Assembly (NCBI GenBank): GCA_022560715.1
Contig: JADFSQ010000028.1
Location: 1 to 11,138 of the forward strand
Origin: Bacteroidota bacterium
GTDB taxonomy: Bacteria > Bacteroidota > Bacteroidia > Flavobacteriales > Flavobacteriaceae
Direction: 5' to 3'
Length of the DNA: 11,138 nucleotides
The position numbers were made by a program, and so were the translations under genes. The notes under the pieces are model-generated. The model saw only the letters and a program-made list of their open reading frames with translations, was not told the DNA's origin and ran no database searches. Every line of letters begins with the position of its first letter. Position 1 is the first letter of the stretch. This document shows, piece after piece, positions 1,580 through 9,817 of the stretch.

Positions 1580-2065
1580 TTAATTTTGAATTTTTTCAAT
1601 TCTAAATCCAACATCTGTAATCCCTTCAAGATTTTCGATGCCTATAACACTTCCGTTTTTACGCATAGCATGTTGAATATTTATTTTATAATCGCCACTT
1701 TCTTCAAAAATAAAGCCTTCTTTATAAAACAACTTATTCTCTTTAATATCTGAAAATCCTGATCCTAAAAATTCTCCATTTGGTTTTGCCATTACATACT
1801 CTAATGTATCTTTTATCACTTTCCCGTTCGGGAAATTAATTTCAACAATTAGAAACAAATTACTGTATTTAAAATCATAAGTATTTCTAATATTTACGAA
1901 CAAATTATAGTGTTTGGTTGTGTCGGGCGGAATGACATTAAAACTTACTATATTATCTTTATGCCAACTATCAGGAATGGTTTTATACTCGTCAAAAACC
2001 TGACTGGAATCGCAGGAAGTAAATCCTATCATAATAATAAAGAGACACCATAAATTATTTCGCAT
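1580..2065 (-). CDS. gldH: Gliding motility lipoprotein GldH
   Basis: GldH is one of the lipoproteins required for Bacteroidota gliding and for the associated type IX secretion machinery; its biochemical role is unknown. The 161-residue product starts with a short hydrophobic signal peptide ending in FTSC, with C18 as the predicted lipidated residue. The mature part is a compact beta-rich domain without a known catalytic motif. Length and sequence fit the GldH family as I remember it. Its position between ricT and a class A PBP gene also matches the order I recall from other flavobacteria. The start overlaps the end of ricT by 11 bases, which suggests translational coupling. Its presence suggests the organism can glide or descends from a glider, but the other gld genes are not in this window. 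Confidence 0.87.
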   Translation of the reverse strand: MRNNLWCLFIIMIGFTSCDSSQVFDEYKTIPDSWHKDNIVSFNVIPPDTTKHYNLFVNIRNTYDFKYSNLFLIVEINFPNGKVIKDTLEYVMAKPNGEFLGSGFSDIKENKLFYKEGFIFEESGDYKINIQHAMRKNGSVIGIENLEGITDVGFRIEKIQN

Positions 2066-3215
2066 TGCTTTGAGGCTTTCTTCGGTTTCGGTTTCTATTA
2101 TTTCTACGTTTCTTTCTACGCCTTGGACTATCGAACCGTGTTAAACTATCTTGCCCTACAACGTTTTCAAAATCGTTTTTAGTGTCTTCTATCAACTCTT
2201 CGGCATACTCTTCTAGGCTTACAACTTTTTTCTTCTTAATATTTAATTCAATTATTTCATTGGCTTGATCTGTAGTTAATTTGTGCCAATTCATCCATTC
2301 GCCTTCATAAGCATACCACATGTGTCTTTTAAAAATATCTGTTTTCTGGCAAACAGCTACGCCTTTTTCGGTTTGAAGTTTAATCTCTGTTTTAGGAAAA
2401 TCTTTTAATGCGTCAAGGTAAGAATCAAGTTCGTAATTTAAACAGCATTTTAATTTTCCACATTGCCCAGCTAATTTTTGAGGATTTAAAGACAATTGCT
2501 GATAACGGGCTGCAGACGTGCTTACTGATCGAAGATCGGTTAACCAAGTGGAACAGCATAGTTCTCTGCCACAAGAACCTATTCCTCCAAGTCTGGCTGC
2601 TTCTTGACGAAGCCCAATTTGTTTCATTTCTATTCGTGTTCTAAATTCTTTTGCAAAAACTTTAATAAGTTCCCGAAAATCTACACGCTCGTCGGCTGTA
2701 TAATAAAAGGTCGCCTTACTTGCATCGCCTTGATATTCAATATCTGATATCTTCATCTGCAATTTAAGATCTATCGCAAATTGGCGTGCTTTTACCTTCA
2801 TTGCCTCTTCTTTATCTCGTGCTGTTTGCCAAATATCAATATCTCTTTGTGATGCTTTTCGGTATATTTTTAAAACCTCCTCGCTATCTTCTTCAACTTT
2901 TTTGCGTTTCATTTGTACTCTTACAAGTTCTCCTGCAAGAGTAACCATACCAACATCATGACCTGATTGTGCTTGAGTGGCAACAACATCGCCAATGCTT
3001 AAGGATAAATTTTCAGAATTTTTATAATAATGTTTTCTGCCATTTTTGAAACGAACTTCAATGCAATTAAAAGGAGTTTCACCATTAGGAAGAGACATGT
3101 TTGATAACCAATCGAAAACGGTTAGTTTATTGCAGCTGTCTGAACCACAAGTTCCGTTGTTTTTACATCCTCTTGGCTGACCATCTTTACCAGTCGTACA
3201 ACTGTTACAAGCCAT
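2055..3215 (-). CDS. ricT: RicT (PSP1/YaaT family) Fe-S regulatory protein
   Basis: This is a PSP1-domain protein. In Bacillus subtilis RicT (YaaT) forms an Fe-S complex with RicA and RicF that affects RNase Y-dependent mRNA processing; the role in Bacteroidota is not established. The core holds the family signature GIGSCGRELCCSTWL with C215, C220 and C221, then QKLAGQCGKLKCCLNYE with C252, C257 and C258. Residues 1-30 add five further cysteines (C3, C6, C17, C23, C28), a likely extra metal or cluster site. The tail at 365-386 is strongly basic (Arg/Lys/Asn) and could bind RNA. At 386 residues it is longer than the Bacillus protein because of these two ends. The ATG at 3215 is kept because the Cys-rich segment begins right after it. 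The 3' end overlaps gldH. Confidence 0.9.
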   Translation of the reverse strand: MACNSCTTGKDGQPRGCKNNGTCGSDSCNKLTVFDWLSNMSLPNGETPFNCIEVRFKNGRKHYYKNSENLSLSIGDVVATQAQSGHDVGMVTLAGELVRVQMKRKKVEEDSEEVLKIYRKASQRDIDIWQTARDKEEAMKVKARQFAIDLKLQMKISDIEYQGDASKATFYYTADERVDFRELIKVFAKEFRTRIEMKQIGLRQEAARLGGIGSCGRELCCSTWLTDLRSVSTSAARYQQLSLNPQKLAGQCGKLKCCLNYELDSYLDALKDFPKTEIKLQTEKGVAVCQKTDIFKRHMWYAYEGEWMNWHKLTTDQANEIIELNIKKKKVVSLEEYAEELIEDTKNDFENVVGQDSLTRFDSPRRRKKRRNNRNRNRRKPQSNAK

Positions 3216-3326: not shown

Positions 3327-3557
3327 TTAAATATTTTTAACATCAATTATGTTTTCAGGACAAACTTTCGCTGCGTTTTGACACTTCAGGTAAATTAACT
3401 CATCTGATGATTTAATCGTGAAGAATCCTTTTTTCTCCTTAGCGTGAAGTAATACTGATTTGCCATCCTTTTTAGACATTTGAAATTGCTCAGGAGCCAA
3501 TTCTACACAATAATTACAACCAATACATTTTTTTCGTTGCAGGGTAACTATTACCAT
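3327..3557 (-). CDS. Small single-cluster ferredoxin
   Basis: This 76-residue electron carrier has C11-x2-C14-x2-C17 near the N-terminus and C66-Pro near the C-terminus. That is the arrangement of ferredoxins with a single [4Fe-4S] (or [3Fe-4S]) cluster. C59 is an extra cysteine in the same C-terminal segment. There is no signal peptide, so it is cytoplasmic. Its ATG shares one base with the stop of the U32 gene (TAATG), so the two are surely co-transcribed and probably translationally coupled. From this context I infer that it may supply electrons to the Fe-S enzyme encoded just before it. That partnership is not shown by the sequence itself, and it could serve other redox enzymes. Confidence 0.87.
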   Translation of the reverse strand: MVIVTLQRKKCIGCNYCVELAPEQFQMSKKDGKSVLLHAKEKKGFFTIKSSDELIYLKCQNAAKVCPENIIDVKNI

Positions 3558-4801
3558 TATGTCTCTACCTTATTTTCAACAATTTTATATAGTTTATCCG
3601 AAGGCCTAATTCTGAAACCCAAAGGTATGGTAACAGAATCGCCTTTAGAGCCAGTATCTTGCTTTATGTCATTGACTAACATTTCTTTTACCTCAAGTTC
3701 TTTGACGCCTGTTGTGATCCCTGTAATTAAAATCTTGTCTCCTATTGAAATATCGTAAGCTTCTATCTTGAATTCTCCTATTTGTGCTTTTGGGAAAAAG
3801 CGTATGCCTTTCCCAAGATAAACTTTCTTTTGTGTAGCGTGAGACCCTGAACCTTTACTCCATTCTCCAAGTTTTTGCCCTAAATAATAGCCATTCCAAA
3901 AACCACGATTATATACTTTTTCTAACTCCAACATCCAAGATACAACTTCCTCTTTATTATAAGTGCCCTTTGCAACACTATTAATAGCTTCTCTATAACA
4001 TTTAATCACATTGGCAACATATTCTGGCGATCTTCCTCTGCCTTCAATCTTTAATACTTTTATTCCCGCATCAACAACTTGGTCTAAAAAATCTATAGTA
4101 CACAAGTCTTTTGGAGACATAATATACTCATTATCCAGCTCCATTTCAAAACCTGTTTCTTGATCGATAACAGTATATTTTTTTCTGCAATTTTGTTTAC
4201 ATGCACCTCTATTTGCTGATGAATTATGTGAATGCAAACTCATATAACATTTTCCCGAAACAGCCATACATAATGCACCATGACCAAAAATTTCAATTTC
4301 AACAAGATTTCCTGAAGGTCCCTTTATTTTATCTTTTTCAATTTGCATAGTAATTTTCTTTACTTGACGTAAACTAAGCTCTCTACTAAGAACCATAGTG
4401 TCAGCAAACAATGAATAAAACTTAACTGTTTCAATATTTGTAATATTAATTTGCGTAGAAATATGTACTTCCATTTCCACTTCTCTTGCAGAAGTAATTA
4501 CCGCTTGATCCATAGCAATAACAGCTGTAATATCAGCTGCTTTAGCTTTTTTAATCAATGTCTTTACAATGAAAAGATCGTGATCGTATATTATTGTATT
4601 TAAAGTAAGATATGTACGAATGTTTTTTGTTTTACATCGTCTAGAAATTTCTTCCAAATCATCCAAAGTGAAATTAGTGGAAGCTCTTGCTCTCATGTTC
4701 AATTGCTCAACACCAAAATACACTGAATTGGCTCCATTATCTATAGCTGCTTGTAAGGATTCAAAATTCCCCGCTGGAGCCATTAATTCAATATGCCGCA
4801 T
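3557..4801 (-). CDS. trhP: U32-family tRNA uridine hydroxylation protein, TrhP-like
   Basis: The 414-residue protein belongs to the family historically called peptidase U32. Characterised members are Fe-S hydroxylation factors rather than proteases. E. coli TrhP (YegQ) makes 5-hydroxyuridine at wobble position 34 of tRNAs without O2, with prephenate as a required metabolite. Here the TIM-barrel start ELMAPAGNFESL, the VLSRELSL segment, FGHGALCMAVSGKC (C178, C185), RGACKQNC (C201, C205) and LKIEGR are all present. C234 (SPKDLC) is an additional cysteine at about the place of the fourth ligand in UbiU-type members. A C-terminal beta-domain covers about 330-414, so the length fits TrhP (about 450) better than UbiU (about 330). 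It starts 2 bases after the trhO stop. Adjacent trhO strengthens the TrhP call; an RlhA-like rRNA role is a less likely alternative. Confidence 0.8.
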   Translation of the reverse strand: MRHIELMAPAGNFESLQAAIDNGANSVYFGVEQLNMRARASTNFTLDDLEEISRRCKTKNIRTYLTLNTIIYDHDLFIVKTLIKKAKAADITAVIAMDQAVITSAREVEMEVHISTQINITNIETVKFYSLFADTMVLSRELSLRQVKKITMQIEKDKIKGPSGNLVEIEIFGHGALCMAVSGKCYMSLHSHNSSANRGACKQNCRKKYTVIDQETGFEMELDNEYIMSPKDLCTIDFLDQVVDAGIKVLKIEGRGRSPEYVANVIKCYREAINSVAKGTYNKEEVVSWMLELEKVYNRGFWNGYYLGQKLGEWSKGSGSHATQKKVYLGKGIRFFPKAQIGEFKIEAYDISIGDKILITGITTGVKELEVKEMLVNDIKQDTGSKGDSVTIPLGFRIRPSDKLYKIVENKVET

Positions 4802-4803
4802 AA

Positions 4804-5835
4804 TTATTTTTTGAATTTCAATTTTTCAGATCTTCCTTTTTTAAATATATCATTACTATTGCCTTGTCCCTTTCGAAGTTCTTTTTGTTTTTTATAGGGC
4901 AATTGATTTATTTCCATACAATTGGTCGAGCAACAATTTTCCATCATTTCTTTACAATCATTACATTGAATAAACAATAAGTGACAGGCTTCGTTTGCGC
5001 AGTTAGTATGTATATCGAAAGGGTTTTTGCATTGATGACAGATAGCAACAACATCATTACTAATACGTTCTGCTCTTCGATCATCAAACACAAAGTTTTG
5101 TCCTAAAAATTTATTTTCAAAATTGTGTTCTTTCACTTGTCTTGTGTATTCTATAATTCCGCCTTCGAGTTGATATACGTTTTTAAAACCTTTATGTTTA
5201 AAATAAGCACTTGCTTTCTCACAACGAATTCCTCCTGTACAATACATTACCAGATTCTTGTCTTCTTTATGGTCTTTTAAATCTTCTTCTATAATATCTA
5301 ACGACTCTCTAAATGTATCCACGTCTGGAGTAATGGCATTTTTAAAATGTCCTATTTCGCTTTCATAGTGGTTTCGCATATCGACAAGAATTGTTTTCTC
5401 ATCTTCAATAAGTTCGTTAAACTGTTTTGCGCCTACATGAATTCCTATATTTCTTACATCAAACGTATTATCGTTTAGACCATCTGCAAGAATTTTGTCT
5501 CGAACTTTTATCTTAAGTTTAAGAAACGACTTATTGTCTTGCTCAACAGCAATGTTTAATCTTACATTTTTCAAAAAAGAAATACTATCTAAATGCTCTT
5601 TAAATGCTGTAAAGCGATCGGCTGGAAGTGATAATTGACTATTAATCCCTTCGTTCGCAATATATATTCTACCAAGAACATCTAATGCATTCCAGGTTAT
5701 AAATAAATGATCTCTAAAAATTTGCGGATTGCCAATTTTGGCATATTGATAAAAAGAAAGGGTTAATCGTTTTTTACCAGATTGGTCAATTAATTCAGCC
5801 CTTTCTTTTGCACTTAATTTATTGTACAGTTGCAT
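4804..5835 (-). CDS. trhO: tRNA uridine hydroxylase TrhO (YceA/UPF0176, rhodanese domain)
   Basis: TrhO is the O2-dependent enzyme that forms 5-hydroxyuridine at tRNA wobble position 34 in the cytoplasm. The 343-residue product has an N-terminal acylphosphatase-like domain (about 25-115, with NEGIN). A rhodanese domain (about 130-235) carries the active-site loop YCTGGIRC, with C199 as catalytic cysteine and C205 as its second cysteine. A Cys-rich C-terminal segment (C266, C269, C279, C284, C291, C294, C301, C302, C306) could bind Zn and is typical of this family. The tail is basic. It is the first gene of the trhO-trhP-ferredoxin group, and a perfect -7 promoter box lies 37 bases upstream. 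Family assignment is very firm; hydroxylation of specific tRNAs is inferred from E. coli. Confidence 0.92.
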   Translation of the reverse strand: MQLYNKLSAKERAELIDQSGKKRLTLSFYQYAKIGNPQIFRDHLFITWNALDVLGRIYIANEGINSQLSLPADRFTAFKEHLDSISFLKNVRLNIAVEQDNKSFLKLKIKVRDKILADGLNDNTFDVRNIGIHVGAKQFNELIEDEKTILVDMRNHYESEIGHFKNAITPDVDTFRESLDIIEEDLKDHKEDKNLVMYCTGGIRCEKASAYFKHKGFKNVYQLEGGIIEYTRQVKEHNFENKFLGQNFVFDDRRAERISNDVVAICHQCKNPFDIHTNCANEACHLLFIQCNDCKEMMENCCSTNCMEINQLPYKKQKELRKGQGNSNDIFKKGRSEKLKFKK

Positions 5836-5872
5836 GCTATACTAATGTTTTAAGGTTAAGAAATATTTTGTG

Positions 5873-5880
5873 CAAATGTA
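5873..5880 (-). promoter_or_regulatory. Candidate -7 box of the trhO operon promoter
   Basis: On the minus strand this reads TACATTTG, a perfect match to the Bacteroidota housekeeping -7 element TAnnTTTG. It ends 37 bases before the trhO ATG, which would give a leader of about 30 nt. At the -33 distance there is only a T-rich stretch and no TTG, so the call is moderate. Confidence 0.45.
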
Positions 5881-5902
5881 ATCTTTTTAAATCAAGGTAA
5901 TA

Positions 5903-5933
5903 AAAAACGCTTTGATTAATTCAAAGCGTTTTT
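5903..5933 (-). terminator. Strong intrinsic terminator hairpin
   Basis: A perfect 13-bp stem (AAAAACGCTTTGA with TCAAAGCGTTTTT) closes a 5-base loop TTAAT. The run of T after the stem is longer when read on the minus strand (six T, then ATTA) than on the plus strand (five T, then AGA), so minus-strand transcripts are the likely target. It lies between divergent genes, where no terminator is needed for trhO or recA. It does fit the end of the 30-codon ORF at 5986-6078, whose stop is 52 bases upstream of the stem. Confidence 0.75.
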
Positions 5934-5985
5934 AGACTAACTCGTTATACAATATTTTAATTTTCTATTAAATACATATATTGAG

Positions 5986-6078
5986 TTAACCACCATCAGC
6001 TTTACAATTACCATTTACAGAAATGGCAACAGTAAAACCTAATTGATTTATTAGCAAAGTTCTTTTAAAAAATTTCAT
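5986..6078 (-). CDS. Candidate 30-codon small ORF with own promoter and terminator
   Basis: The ATG at 6078 opens a 30-residue frame ending in TAA. The product begins MKFFKR, continues with a hydrophobic stretch (LGFTVAIS, about 13-20) and ends NGNCKADGG, with one cysteine and a terminal Gly-Gly. I do not recognise a family. Support is contextual. An ECF-like promoter lies just upstream with 24 bases between its -10 and the ATG, and a strong terminator follows the stop. The predicted transcript is about 200 nt, so this could instead be a small regulatory RNA and the ORF accidental. The basic start and small hydrophobic middle would also suit a short secreted or modified peptide, but no export or modification genes are visible nearby. 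Confidence 0.4.
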   Translation of the reverse strand: MKFFKRTLLINQLGFTVAISVNGNCKADGG

Positions 6079-6102
6079 AGCAAACTTTCCCAGTTCTAAA
6101 AG

Positions 6103-6132
6103 ATAGATGCCAAAAGTTTAAAAAGGTTGCGT
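6103..6132 (-). promoter_or_regulatory. ECF-sigma-like promoter, copy A (drives 30-codon ORF)
   Basis: On the minus strand the element reads ACGCAACCTTTTTAAA, then CTTTTG, then GCATCTAT. GCAACC (6130-6125) and CATCTA are separated by 15 bases, the layout of ECF promoters (AAC-containing -35, CGT/TCTA-like -10). It matches copy B at 7251-7280 in 27 of 30 positions, and in 31 of 36 when extended to the right. The position just upstream of the small ORF gives a leader of roughly 17 nt. It lies back to back with the recA promoter. Confidence 0.6.
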
Positions 6133-6139
6133 CATAAAA

Positions 6140-6170
6140 TTGTATTGTGCTAAAAGATGTATTACTTTAG
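6140..6170 (+). promoter_or_regulatory. Candidate recA promoter
   Basis: TTG at 6140-6142 is followed after 20 bases by TACTTTAG (6163-6170), seven of eight matches to TAnnTTTG. Spacing agrees with the Bacteroidota -33/-7 pattern. The predicted leader is about 20 nt. I see no obvious palindromic LexA-type box around it. The -33 element lies only 7 bases from the ECF-like element on the opposite strand. Confidence 0.5.
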
Positions 6171-6198
6171 CATCAGTTAGAAATTAAAATTTGAAGAA

Positions 6199-7203
6199 AT
6201 GAGCAACGAAAAAGAAGCAAAATTAAAAGCGCTACAACTTACGTTAGACAAATTAGATAAAGCTTATGGCAAAGGAGCAGTCATGAGGATGGGTGATGCA
6301 GCAGTTGAAAACATCGAAGCTATCTCTTCGGGCTCTTTTGGGCTTGATTTAGCCTTGGGAGTTGGAGGTTATCCAAAAGGCAGAGTTGTAGAAATTTATG
6401 GTCCCGAATCTTCTGGTAAAACTACACTTGCTCTACATGCTATCGCCGAAGCCCAAAAAGCAGGTGGAATCGCAGCATTTATTGATGCTGAACATGCTTT
6501 TGATCGCTTTTATGCAAAAAATCTTGGCGTAGATATTGATAATTTAATTATTTCTCAACCAGATTATGGCGAACAAGCTTTAGAAATTGTCGACAATTTA
6601 GTTAGATCTGGTGCCATAGATATTATTGTAATAGACTCTGTCGCAGCTCTTACTCCAAAAAGTGAAATAGAAGGTGAAATGGGCGATTCTAAAATGGGTT
6701 TACATGCGCGATTAATGTCTCAAGCATTACGTAAGCTAACAGCTTCAATTAGTAAAACCAAGTGTGTTATGATGTTTATTAACCAATTACGCGAAAAAAT
6801 TGGTATTGTTTTTGGCAATCCTGAAGTTACTACTGGCGGAAATGCTTTAAAATTTTATGCCTCCATACGTATAGATATTCGTCGTTCTACACAAATTAAA
6901 GACAGTAATGGCACTGTTTTAGGCAATAAAACTCGTGTTAAAGTTGTAAAAAACAAAGTCGCTCCGCCATTTAGACTGGCAGAGTTTGATATTATGTATG
7001 GAAAAGGCATCTCAAAAGTTGGTGAAATATTAGATATTGCAGTAGAGCATGAAATTATAAAAAAAAGTGGCTCATGGTTTAGTTACCAAGGTACGAAACT
7101 CGGTCAAGGACGTGATGCAGTTAAAGTTATTATAAACGATAATCCTGACTTAATGGAAGAGCTTGAGCAAAAAATTAAAGCAATAATTGCTCAAGATAAA
7201 TAA
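6199..7203 (+). CDS. recA: Recombinase RecA
   Basis: RecA forms ATP-dependent filaments on single-stranded DNA, drives homologous pairing and strand exchange, and stimulates LexA-type self-cleavage where such repressors exist. The 334-residue protein is full length. It shows the Walker A motif GPESSGKTT (68-76), catalytic E98 in DAEHAF, Walker B IIVIDS with D146, loop L1 around EGEMGDS and loop L2 [16 protein letters not shown]. The N-terminal segment KGAVMRMGD is conserved. The C-terminus is short and ends in a basic residue rather than the long acidic tail of E. coli RecA. The ATG at 6199 agrees with the usual flavobacterial start. The gene appears monocistronic, with a weak terminator-like hairpin after it and a separate promoter-like element before the next gene. 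Confidence 0.98.
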
Positions 7204-7220
7204 AGTTTGAAAGTCTCGAT

Positions 7221-7243
7221 CTCGATACTATCGGAGTTTTTAT
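7221..7243 (+). terminator. Weak terminator-like hairpin after recA
   Basis: CTCGAT (7221-7226) can pair with ATCGGAG (7230-7236), with one bulged G and a 3-base loop, followed by five T. The stem is short, so termination may be partial. It lies 18 bases after the recA stop and before the ECF-like promoter at 7251. Confidence 0.35.
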
Positions 7244-7250
7244 AATCCAC

Positions 7251-7280
7251 ACGCAACCTTTTTAAAGGTTTAGCATCTAT
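7251..7280 (+). promoter_or_regulatory. ECF-sigma-like promoter, copy B (lipoprotein-sigma operon)
   Basis: ACGCAACCTTTTTAAA is followed by GGTTTA and GCATCTAT. GCAACC at 7253-7258 and CATCTA at 7274-7279 are 15 bases apart. The first 16 bases and the final GCATCTAT are identical to copy A at 6132-6103 on the other strand. It ends 36 bases before the lipoprotein ATG. The ECF sigma gene is the second gene downstream, so autoregulation is the simplest inference. Confidence 0.6.
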
Positions 7281-7316
7281 ATTATAACATAGTTTGTATC
7301 TAAATATCAAATTAAA

Positions 7317-7739
7317 ATGAAGAAATTATTTTTTTTTGGGTTTGTTATAGTTTCTTTTTGGTCATGTAGTGTTGATCCTGTAAATGAAGATTTCTATTTT
7401 GAAATCCTTCCTATTGAAAGTGTATCAATCCCTAATGAAATACGTTTTGGTGAAGTTTATACAATTGGTTATTCTTATTTCAAACCGTCGTCATGCCATT
7501 TTTTTAATGACTTATATTATGTAGCAGAAATTAATGTTAGAACTATAGCTGTAATCAATAAGGTATTAAATTCTAATGAAAACACTATATGTGAGACTCT
7601 TACTAACGAATTAGAAGAAAGATCATTTAATTTTCATGTAAATAAAAATGGAGGTACTTATATTTTTAAATTTTGGCAAGGAGAAGATGAGAATGGGCAT
7701 GACACCTATTTGGTTTTTGAGGTGCCAATAGTACAGTAA
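7317..7739 (+). CDS. Small lipoprotein of unknown function, first gene of the sigma operon
   Basis: The 140-residue product has a short signal peptide with FWSC at 14-17, so C17 is the predicted lipid anchor and the mature protein begins CSVDPVNEDF. The rest is rich in beta-strand-type sequence with aromatic residues. It contains two further cysteines, one in PSSCHFF and one in TICETL, which could form a disulfide in the periplasm or on the surface. No catalytic motif is visible and I do not recognise the family. The stop is 21 bases before the sigma factor start, so the genes are co-transcribed from the ECF-like promoter at 7251. By context it may be a sensor accessory or a target of the envelope response; that is inference. 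Confidence 0.8.
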   Translation: MKKLFFFGFVIVSFWSCSVDPVNEDFYFEILPIESVSIPNEIRFGEVYTIGYSYFKPSSCHFFNDLYYVAEINVRTIAVINKVLNSNENTICETLTNELEERSFNFHVNKNGGTYIFKFWQGEDENGHDTYLVFEVPIVQ

Positions 7740-7760: not shown

Positions 7761-8303
7761 TTGAGTTTAGATATACTCATACAAAAATGTAAAAAAAATG
7801 ATACTAAAGCACAAAGCGAAGTTTATAAGCTCTTTTCGGGTAAATTATTTGCGGTCTGTTTAAAGTATTCAAGAAATCATGCAGATGCTGAAGACAATCT
7901 GCAAGATGCCTTTGTGACTATTTTTAAAAAAATATCGCAATACAAAAAAAAAGGATCTTTTGAAGGCTGGCTTAAACGAATTGTAATTAATACTGTGCTT
8001 CAAAAATATAGAATAAAAGGTGTTTTTAATATTGTAAATGAGAATAATATTGAAGATGAAGTAATTGAAATTGAAGACTATCAAGTTGATATGAATTTTT
8101 TGCTTTTAAGTATCCAAGAATTACCAGATAGGTATCGCTTGGTGTTTAGTCTTTATGCTTTAGATGGATATTCGCATAAAGAAATAGCGAAAATGCTTAA
8201 TATTTCAACAGGTACAACTAAATCCAATCTTGCTCGGGCAAGAATGATTTTAAAAAATAAAATTGAAAACTATAAAGCAAATTTAAATTTGCAATCATTA
8301 TAA
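7761..8303 (+). CDS. ECF-type RNA polymerase sigma factor
   Basis: This 180-residue sigma-70 family protein of the extracytoplasmic function group directs RNA polymerase to a small regulon. Region 2 covers about 20-88, with DAEDNLQDAFVTIFKKI and GSFEGWLKRIVINTV. Region 4 covers about 112-166, with LPDRYRLVFSLYALDGYSHKEIA followed by the helix-turn-helix MLNISTGTTKSNLARAR. Regions 1 and 3 are absent, as expected for ECF factors. The start is TTG at 7761. An in-frame stop at 7743 excludes an upstream start and no ATG occurs in frame until codon 111. The rare start may keep the level low. It follows the lipoprotein gene by 21 bases and its stop overlaps the next ATG by one base. Confidence 0.93.
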   Translation: MSLDILIQKCKKNDTKAQSEVYKLFSGKLFAVCLKYSRNHADAEDNLQDAFVTIFKKISQYKKKGSFEGWLKRIVINTVLQKYRIKGVFNIVNENNIEDEVIEIEDYQVDMNFLLLSIQELPDRYRLVFSLYALDGYSHKEIAKMLNISTGTTKSNLARARMILKNKIENYKANLNLQSL

Positions 8304-9817
8304 TGAAAGATAAAAAAAACATAGACAGACTGTTTATGGAGAAGCTAAAAGATTTTGAAGCTACTCCTAGCAATTCTGTTTGGGAAAATATATCTATAGA
8401 ATTACAAAGTATTGAAAAAGGGAAAAAAGGCATCCCAACGTGGTGGCGAGTGGCTGGTGTAGCTGCTACTTTATTGTTACTATTTACAATAAGTCAGGTT
8501 GTATTAAATAATAATACTACAATTCCTTTACAAGAAATAATTGTAGATGAAGGCACTATAAAAGATTCTGAAAATACAGATTCACAAGATGCTGTTAATA
8601 AGGAAAATATGCTTTCTGATTCTGATCAAAAAAATGTTTCAGAAGATCTTAAATCTGAATCTTCTAGTTTCCCATCTAATGACTCTACAACTAATGCACG
8701 TTCAATTTCAGCACAAAATGAAAACAGAAATGTAACTGTAAGTAATAATACTCAAAACGTTAATCGGAATACTTATAAAACTAACAAAAACGAACTGGTT
8801 AAATCTTCTTCAGAAAAGTCAAAAAATGCTATCGTAGATAATACCAATTCGAATTTGTATAAAGATAAGGTTGAAAATAATAATATCGATAAAGCAAAAA
8901 TTGATGAGTTATTGAAACCTGTTAACAATACATCAGAAACAAAAGAAACTTATAAGACTGCTTCAACTAACACTAATGTTGATGAAAATATCACAGAATC
9001 TGAAGAGTCTAATACAATTACAGAAAATGACAAATTGTCTTTAACTGAAGAAATTGCTGCTAATGAAGACGAAAATATTGAAGATATTCCTAAAGAAGAA
9101 TTTGATCGATGGAGTATTGCCTCTAATATTGCTCCTGTTTATTTCAATTCTTTCGGAAATGGATCCTCAATCCATCCACAGTTTAACAATAACTCAAAAA
9201 CTGGAGATATTAATATGAGTTATGGTATATCGGGAAGTTATGCTATTAATAAAAAATTGAGAGTTCGTGCTGGAATAAATAAAGTTAATCTTGGTTATAG
9301 TACAAACGATGTTATTGTTTACGATAATATTGGTGGATCTGATAGTCCGGGATTATTAAGGAATGTAAAATTTAATGAAGCAGGCGAAAATCTTTCTTTT
9401 ATTAGTGTTGAGGAATTTAATTTTTTACAAGTTCCTGGAATTCTAAATAATTTTATAGAATCATCAATAGATCAAAAATTAGGATTTATAGAAATACCTT
9501 TAGAATTAGAATATCGAATATCGAATAAAAAAATGGGCATTAGTGTAATAGGTGGATTTAGTGCTTTATTTTTAACTGATAACGAAATTTATTCATTTTT
9601 TAATGGTGTTAGTACTTTATTAGGAGAAGCAACAAATATTAACAATACTAGCTTTAGCGCAAATTTTGGGCTGGGATTCGATTTTAAAATATCAGATAAG
9701 TTTAATTTAAATCTTGAACCTATATTTAAATATCAAATAAATACTTTCAATGAAACTTCAGGTAATTTTAAACCTTATTTTATTGGTATATATTCTGGTT
9801 TAAGTTTTAAGTTTTAA
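8303..9817 (+). CDS. Anti-sigma-like/outer-membrane beta-barrel hybrid protein
   Basis: The 504-residue product appears to span the whole envelope. Residues 1-46 are a charged cytoplasmic segment (DRLFMEKLKDFEATPSN, then VWENI) of the type that follows ECF sigma genes in Bacteroidota and probably binds the sigma factor. One membrane helix lies at about 47-68. Residues 69-265 are a low-complexity linker rich in Asn, Ser, Thr, Glu and Lys. Residues 268-504 alternate beta-strands and turns and end in GLSFKF, with the terminal Phe typical of outer-membrane barrels. The ATG overlaps the sigma stop by one base (TAATG), which fits sigma/anti-sigma co-translation. Anti-sigma function is inferred from position and N-terminal pattern; no known anti-sigma motif such as a zinc site is visible. 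Confidence 0.8.
   Translation: MKDKKNIDRLFMEKLKDFEATPSNSVWENISIELQSIEKGKKGIPTWWRVAGVAATLLLLFTISQVVLNNNTTIPLQEIIVDEGTIKDSENTDSQDAVNKENMLSDSDQKNVSEDLKSESSSFPSNDSTTNARSISAQNENRNVTVSNNTQNVNRNTYKTNKNELVKSSSEKSKNAIVDNTNSNLYKDKVENNNIDKAKIDELLKPVNNTSETKETYKTASTNTNVDENITESEESNTITENDKLSLTEEIAANEDENIEDIPKEEFDRWSIASNIAPVYFNSFGNGSSIHPQFNNNSKTGDINMSYGISGSYAINKKLRVRAGINKVNLGYSTNDVIVYDNIGGSDSPGLLRNVKFNEAGENLSFISVEEFNFLQVPGILNNFIESSIDQKLGFIEIPLELEYRISNKKMGISVIGGFSALFLTDNEIYSFFNGVSTLLGEATNINNTSFSANFGLGFDFKISDKFNLNLEPIFKYQINTFNETSGNFKPYFIGIYSGLSFKF

Follow-up and report, generated by a model that had tools for sequence, protein, structure and literature searches.

Putative ECF sigma factor promoters on either side of recA and the predicted regulon of a Dma-like system in Flavobacteriaceae

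Sigma-E of Escherichia coli is an autoregulated ECF sigma factor with a membrane anti-sigma factor, RseA, an envelope regulon and small outputs. The flavobacterial locus described here is predicted to share each of these traits; however, RseA stops short of the outer membrane and the small outputs of sigma-E are sRNAs, whereas here there is a peptide-coding unit. In Bacteroides, ECF sigma factors with anti-sigma partners that reach the outer membrane have newly been recognised and affect vesicle output, and Das1 is assigned to ECF21 by its authors (excerpts of PMC13088901). Like these Dma systems, our locus has an ECF sigma factor gene beside one for a predicted anti-sigma factor spanning from the outer membrane to the cytosol, and envelope outputs (NigD1 and PUL proteins in theirs); unlike them, as far as those excerpts describe them, it lies in Flavobacteriaceae, is linked to recA, includes a microprotein unit and has a sharp promoter motif; the likeness is one of architecture. 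Predicted ECF-type promoters, one of them before an ECF/anti-sigma operon, are described as SM6 promoters in another flavobacterium, Flavobacterium psychrophilum; in the excerpts of that paper (PMC9723704) their -10 carries a CGT box and their targets include T9SS genes, whereas here CATCTW accompanies a GCAACC -35. EcfO of Bacteroides fragilis, likewise an ECF sigma factor of Bacteroidota, is linked to oxidative stress (as cited in an excerpt of PMC12596196). The type of circuit, an envelope-linked ECF sigma factor with a Dma-like anti-sigma factor, is known; no description of the motif, the regulon or the microproteins was found in the literature searched by motif letters and topic.

The window (the whole stretch of DNA analysed, 11,138 nt) is one entire contig of a 2.38 Mb metagenome-assembled genome that is 81.6% complete in 444 contigs, so any regulon list drawn from this genome is partial. 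The features needed for what follows are these:

4804-5835, minus: rhodanese-family gene (Pfam UPF0176_N, Rhodanese and Rhodanese_C)
5903..5933, minus: terminator-like stem-loop at the end of the small unit, ahead of the rhodanese-family gene (from the sequence, with similar stems in relatives)
5935..5991, minus: hairpin that takes in the microprotein's final Gly and stop codons (predicted fold in relatives)
5986..6078, minus: 30-aa microprotein MKFFKRTLLINQLGFTVAISVNGNCKADGG plus stop (conserved in relatives; synonymous excess; profile search)
6103..6132, minus: copy A, putative promoter facing away from recA, with -35 ACGCAACC and -10 GCATCTA (from the sequence and recA-linked relatives)
6199..7203, plus: recA (TIGR02012, 552 bits), between both putative promoters and targeted by neither
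7251..7280, plus: copy B, putative promoter of the lipoprotein-sigma-anti-sigma operon (from the sequence and the equivalent site in relatives)
7317..7739, plus: lipoprotein-like protein of 140 aa, first gene of the sigma operon (related ORFs lie behind the self-site of relatives)
7761..8303, plus: ECF sigma factor of 180 aa (Sigma70_r2 and Sigma70_r4_2; TIGR02937 above cut-off)
8303..9817, plus: predicted Dma-like anti-sigma factor (AlphaFold2 model, Foldseek, hydropathy of relatives)

Read directly, copy A (minus strand, 6132-6103) is ACGCAACCTTTTTAAACTTTTGGCATCTAT and copy B (plus strand, 7251-7280) is ACGCAACCTTTTTAAAGGTTTAGCATCTAT. An earlier note on this DNA had described them as near-identical ECF-type promoter elements in opposite orientation, and its readings hold: 27 of 30 bases agree, a 16-base block and GCATCTAT are exact, GCAACC and CATCTA stand 15 bases apart in copies A and B alike, and each element points at a start codon (ATG at 6078 on the minus strand, 24 bases past copy A; ATG at 7317, 36 bases past copy B). 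In a repeat search the match grows to 36 nt, with 86% identity. No other non-overlapping inverted 30-mer pair in the window matches as well; among 40 dinucleotide shuffles of the window the maximum was 25 of 30, reached in one shuffle, with 24 in nine and no pair of at least 24 in the other 30. The ECF sigma factor encoded at 7761-8303 very probably uses both elements as promoters, as the earlier note had proposed, a reading supported by the self-sites of relatives, the co-occurrence of motif and sigma orthologue, and a -10 shift in paralogues.

The circuit that we favour, with a probability of roughly 0.88, is one in which both elements are read by this sigma factor, which is held by its Dma-like partner and drives its own operon, the microprotein and a surface regulon. 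It is built on site conservation, co-occurrence, target type, coding signal in the microprotein and predicted topology; from these we infer binding, transcription, an activating signal and functions for lipoproteins and microproteins. At rest, the sigma factor would be held by the anti-sigma protein encoded directly behind it. The predicted chain of this protein starts in the cytoplasm, crosses the inner membrane and continues as a long disordered linker that ends in an outer-membrane barrel. A signal at the outer membrane would, by analogy with the Dma family, release the sigma factor, which would then read ACGCAACC as -35 and CATCTW as -10. At copy B it would amplify its own operon (lipoprotein, sigma and anti-sigma); from copy A a short transcript encoding the microprotein of ~30 aa would be made; and copies elsewhere would serve genes for lipoproteins, for SusD- and SusC-like and further secreted proteins, and for another type of small protein that has a single transmembrane segment. 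The Dma-like partner and the surface-protein regulon are additions to what the earlier note had proposed.

The sigma and anti-sigma genes overlap by one base, and we take the two products to be cognate. In the AlphaFold2 model of the 8303-9817 protein, helices at 7-38 are followed by a transmembrane helix (46-68), a disordered stretch (69-245) and a barrel (270-503) of eight long strands, mostly of high confidence; overall pTM is 0.49 and the N-terminal anti-sigma part is of low to middling confidence. The best solved-structure matches of the barrel in Foldseek are OmpA barrels. In each of the relatives L185-L213, 29 in all, hydropathy shows a hydrophobic stretch that begins between residues 40 and 55, and the chain terminates in F. 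Proteins encoded beside sigma genes in Bacteroides, Prevotella and others, none of them a proven Dma, gave a profile that matches the barrel only (98.8%). In the model an anti-sigma factor of the inner membrane is linked to a barrel of the outer membrane, and prediction gives the protein the single-chain layout of the Dma type: cytoplasmic N-terminus, inner-membrane helix, linker and outer-membrane barrel. The lipoprotein encoded ahead of the sigma factor has no Pfam match up to E 0.1, and its two NCBIfam matches fall far under the cut-offs.

Copy A lies just upstream of recA on the minus strand, pointing away, at 21 of 21 loci taken from the better sigma matches (the window and L105-L124), and at 11 of 17 further distinct recA-linked loci, making 32 of 38; it is absent at the remaining six (L195, L200, L201, L205, L223 and L225). 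Cultured relatives that share the layout of the window include Psychroserpens jangbogonensis and Mangrovimonas. The 'second small unit' that the earlier note placed behind it turns out to be a conserved microprotein gene, present at 17 of the 21 loci and, as read from the sequences, at nine of the 11 (L189-L194, L198, L199 and L219). Copy A could instead drive a regulatory small RNA, with the peptide secondary or absent, a model for which is given by the sigma-E-dependent sRNAs of enterobacteria. The unit is short, with a conserved leader, a hairpin at the stop codon and a terminator-like stem, as such an RNA might have, and copy A is kept at six of 32 loci where the microprotein is missing (L106, L108, L120, L122, L188 and L196), which may reflect a further use of the promoter or recent losses. 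The coding signal nevertheless speaks against it: across the 30 codons of 15 coding sequences there are 659 synonymous against 453 non-synonymous single-base codon differences where 22% synonymous would be expected (pairs being non-independent), and the microprotein is, on this pattern, under purifying selection. Retention at 26 of 32 loci points the same way, as does the ending [DE]GG, which persists even where the remainder has drifted. M1, F3, G14, C25, G29 and G30 are invariant in 17 aligned microproteins; beyond these rows Phe replaces Cys in L189 and L190, and Aquimarina forms end CIVEGG or CMVEGG. A profile search of 99 genomes found one copy in each of the 17 genomes from which the model was made and an additional match in G011 (E 9e-7), which lies ~1.5 kb from the sigma gene of that genome; one further match, the nineteenth (G034, E 0.004), is probably due to chance.

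The RNA itself offers less to the small-RNA alternative. The stop-codon hairpin is predicted to fold in 16 of 16 sequences that have both arms, with 90% of cells paired; but only two of 10 pairs changed on both sides, and as two of 500 shuffles reached the same score, the covariation is weak, if suggestive. An Rfam scan of 5700-7400 gave no family above the gathering score. We consider a small RNA in place of the peptide unlikely, though of all the alternatives it is the one to be taken most seriously. The TTAGTC end of the hairpin had prompted an integron attC-like reading, which was rejected since the attC core pattern, as we understand it, does not fit. In several genomes a conserved leader, TTTGCTATGAAA, is followed by unrelated inserts before the microprotein, some of them containing short hairpins and a very small upstream frame (L108, L110, L111, L113-L115, L118, L119, L121, L124, L191, L192 and L194).

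The microprotein has a signal-peptide-like segment and a short tail, CKADGG in most genomes. It is conceivable, if rather a long shot, that it is an exported signal that reports the state of the outer membrane or binds the anti-sigma barrel, the two promoters then forming a peptide feedback loop; lipid anchoring at the Cys would be possible only where this residue is kept, and the substitution by Phe at L189 and L190 lowers the odds of this reading. If true, this would be a type of loop that ECF sigma factors are not known to have.

Beyond the terminator-like stem, 3327-5835 on the minus strand holds the rhodanese-family gene together with frames that we take to be U32-peptidase-like (3557-4801) and ferredoxin-like (3327-3557, small). 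TrhO and the U32 protein TrhP both hydroxylate the tRNA wobble uridine, and for this reason the cluster may be a tRNA-modification operon. Further along the same strand are presumably a PSP1/RicT-like protein (2055-3215) and a lipoprotein resembling GldH of gliding motility (1580-2065).

For the favoured circuit, autoregulation was assessed at 59 loci chosen by sigma similarity and blind to the motif: L015-L044, of which L015 is the window, and L185-L213, the first 29 of 80 loci in a second sigma-similarity set. Four pairs among them are the same contig taken twice, leaving 55 distinct loci. The 1 kb ahead of each sigma gene was scanned for GCAACC with CATCT, allowing at most two mismatches, and a site was found at 57 of 59 loci; discounting L206, which is doubtful with a spacing of 20, this becomes 56 of 59, and a site of the ACGCAACC-N14/15-YATCTW type precedes the sigma operon at 52 of 55 distinct loci. 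Of the 59, which include Polaribacter and Tenacibaculum, only L208 and L209 (Tenacibaculum) have no self-site within 1 kb and L206 no convincing one. In the 56, the two blocks stand at a nearly fixed spacing, 15 in 53 and 14 in three. The 53 sites with spacing 15 all have CGCAACC and ATCT. ATCT is preceded by C in 42 of them and by T in 11, and the middle drifts, conservation being concentrated in the -35 and -10 blocks. Genera with the self-site include Psychroserpens, Mangrovimonas, Xanthomarina, Algibacter, Lutibacter, Ulvibacter and Wenyingzhuangia. The next 18 loci (L214-L231) have a CATCT-type site in three cases (L219, L223 and L225) and an AGTC type in twelve, and in the scan of L227, L229 and L231 no site of either kind was seen; the self-site is missing from all 33 loci that are more distant or partial (L232-L264).

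Motif and sigma orthologue also go together across genomes. Leaving out the genome of the window, 59 genomes of the same family were compared: an orthologue is present in 48 (E ≤1.7e-56) and absent from 11 (E ≥2.8e-32), with a clear gap between; the motif, with at most one mismatch, occurs in 48 of 48 with an orthologue versus two of 11 without (Fisher 4e-9), and the 48 hold 213 matches versus eight for the reversed control. Of the two exceptions, G037 has its single match inside a gene (L050), and G004 has its two before a SusD-like gene (L079) and a lipoprotein gene (L084). As G004 is 77% complete and these are plausible targets, the assembly may lack the sigma gene. Outside the family, 39 genomes were compared: the orthologue-bearing G061 has three matches, five genomes have one each and 33 none. 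Together with the self-sites, this co-occurrence upholds the proposal that the sigma factor controls its own operon.

The elements might still serve another regulator that is linked to the sigma factor or co-inherited with it, for there are several ECF genes per genome and co-occurrence alone cannot name the reader. However, G020, G024, G027 and G039, which have other ECF-like matches, have neither orthologue nor motif, and the site precedes the sigma gene even where little intervenes, as in Lutibacter, where it lies ~50 nt away (this genus has the self-site, and no copy A was seen there). Further, the -10 shifts together with sigma residues between orthologue and paralogue clades, with the -35 constant. 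At twelve Aquimarina and Dokdonia loci (L214-L218, L220-L222, L224, L226, L228 and L230) ACGCAACC is followed by AGTC, with the TC one base nearer than in CATC; these sites were readable by eye in 12 of 12, the pattern expression having caught 10 since two end AGTCC and AGTCA. In the sigma tree the twelve lie on one side of a branch with support of 100/99, and Aquimarina occurs on both sides, so that the AGTC-type sigma factors are paralogues; L206, L208 and L209 (Polaribacter and Tenacibaculum) fall beside the AGTC clade with weaker support (83/87). Compared with the 26 sigma factors of group A, those of the AGTC clade show L80I, Q81D and R84K in what we take to be region 2.4, and changes elsewhere too, e.g. 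V133E, A158H and R161K. The common -35 and a -10 that tracks sigma type are as sigma recognition would predict, though this is a correlation and other residues have also changed. Taken with these observations, a different reader of the elements seems quite improbable. The records of L189 and L191 are titled Chlorobiota and Algicola, yet both loci group within the flavobacterial sigma tree, and these names may be mistaken.

At L314 and L318, ACGCAACC is combined with a third -10 type, CAGACTA, before a lipoprotein gene, ~1.1 kb upstream of genes for 51% paralogue sigma factors in G009 and G031. The swapped pattern ACGCAACC-N13-CAGTCTA gave 11 matches versus nine for the reversed control in 99 genomes, and a count at control level indicates no family-wide AGTC regulon in these relatives.

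In the genome to which the window belongs, GCAACC-N15-CATCTA with at most one mismatch gave 14 matches versus four for the reversed pattern, and ACGCAACC-N14-GCATCTWT with at most two mismatches gave nine versus three for the reversed control. Eight of these nine were read: one is within a gene (L104) and seven lie ahead of genes, namely copy A, copy B, L101 and L083 (short lipoproteins), L078 (a secreted protein without Pfam family), L097 (a SusD-like lipoprotein) and L103 (a lipoprotein with a receptor-L/LRR-type match).

A wider set of 117 loci, a sample among the motif matches listed together with 60 stretches from non-recA matches of selected genomes, was scanned for targets, excluding L075-L077, which are all self-sites. 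The earlier note had expected matches before start codons rather than scattered inside genes, and this is borne out: only 17 of 123 sampled matches with at most one mismatch overlap an ORF of at least 100 codons, and 84 distinct ORFs of at least 90 codons start within 150 bases of the motif, with a median distance from motif to ATG of 24 nt. A signal-like N-terminus was found in 76 of these 84 sampled targets versus 31 of 114 control ORFs (other ORFs of at least 150 codons at the same loci), and 66 versus 16 are lipoprotein-like. Eight of the 84 fail the signal test; 13 are, by eye, the operon's own lipoprotein, and without them 63 of 71 bear a signal. The alignment consensus of the targets begins MKK...SC..DD, a start typical of surface lipoproteins in Bacteroidota. 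Pfam families among them include SusD-like (five), LVIVD (five), DUF3575 (three), TonB plug (two) and RmlD (two), besides others; the RmlD-type genes, behind L053 and L164, look like gene-end or chance matches and were rejected as targets.

At 11 loci in 11 genomes (L051, L130, L146, L181, L125, L046, L054, L067, L074, L178 and L092) the motif is followed by small frames of another family, 28-63 aa long and with a single hydrophobic stretch (e.g. MKILFLVIALIIINLILLVFSVNKKTDP). The best matches of a profile of this family include its source frames, and many weaker ones are probably ordinary transmembrane segments; these frames often end in NKKTDP or carry a Cys-containing tail. Neither small-protein family matches any library family tried.

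Two further explanations of the pair can be dealt with briefly. That copy A is part of SOS control of recA is suggested by its place in the recA upstream region, but it points away from recA, the same motif stands before lipoprotein genes elsewhere, and counterparts described in the excerpts of the literature consulted differ from it, making this very improbable. A mobile or invertible element around recA, with the pair as its inverted repeat, would explain the opposite orientation and the arms of the pair, but hardly the drifting middle of the self-sites between their conserved blocks, the single copies before unrelated genes, or the same orientation of copy A at 21 of 21 recA-linked loci, and we dismiss it.

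The paralogue series, with one -35 and an altered -10, amounts to a natural experiment on ECF specificity. The sharp, family-wide promoter motif yields a predicted regulon for a Dma-like system in flavobacteria, made up of lipoproteins, SusC/SusD-type proteins and two small-protein families; and regulon, signal and microproteins could all be tested in cultured genera such as Psychroserpens, Mangrovimonas, Xanthomarina and Lutibacter.
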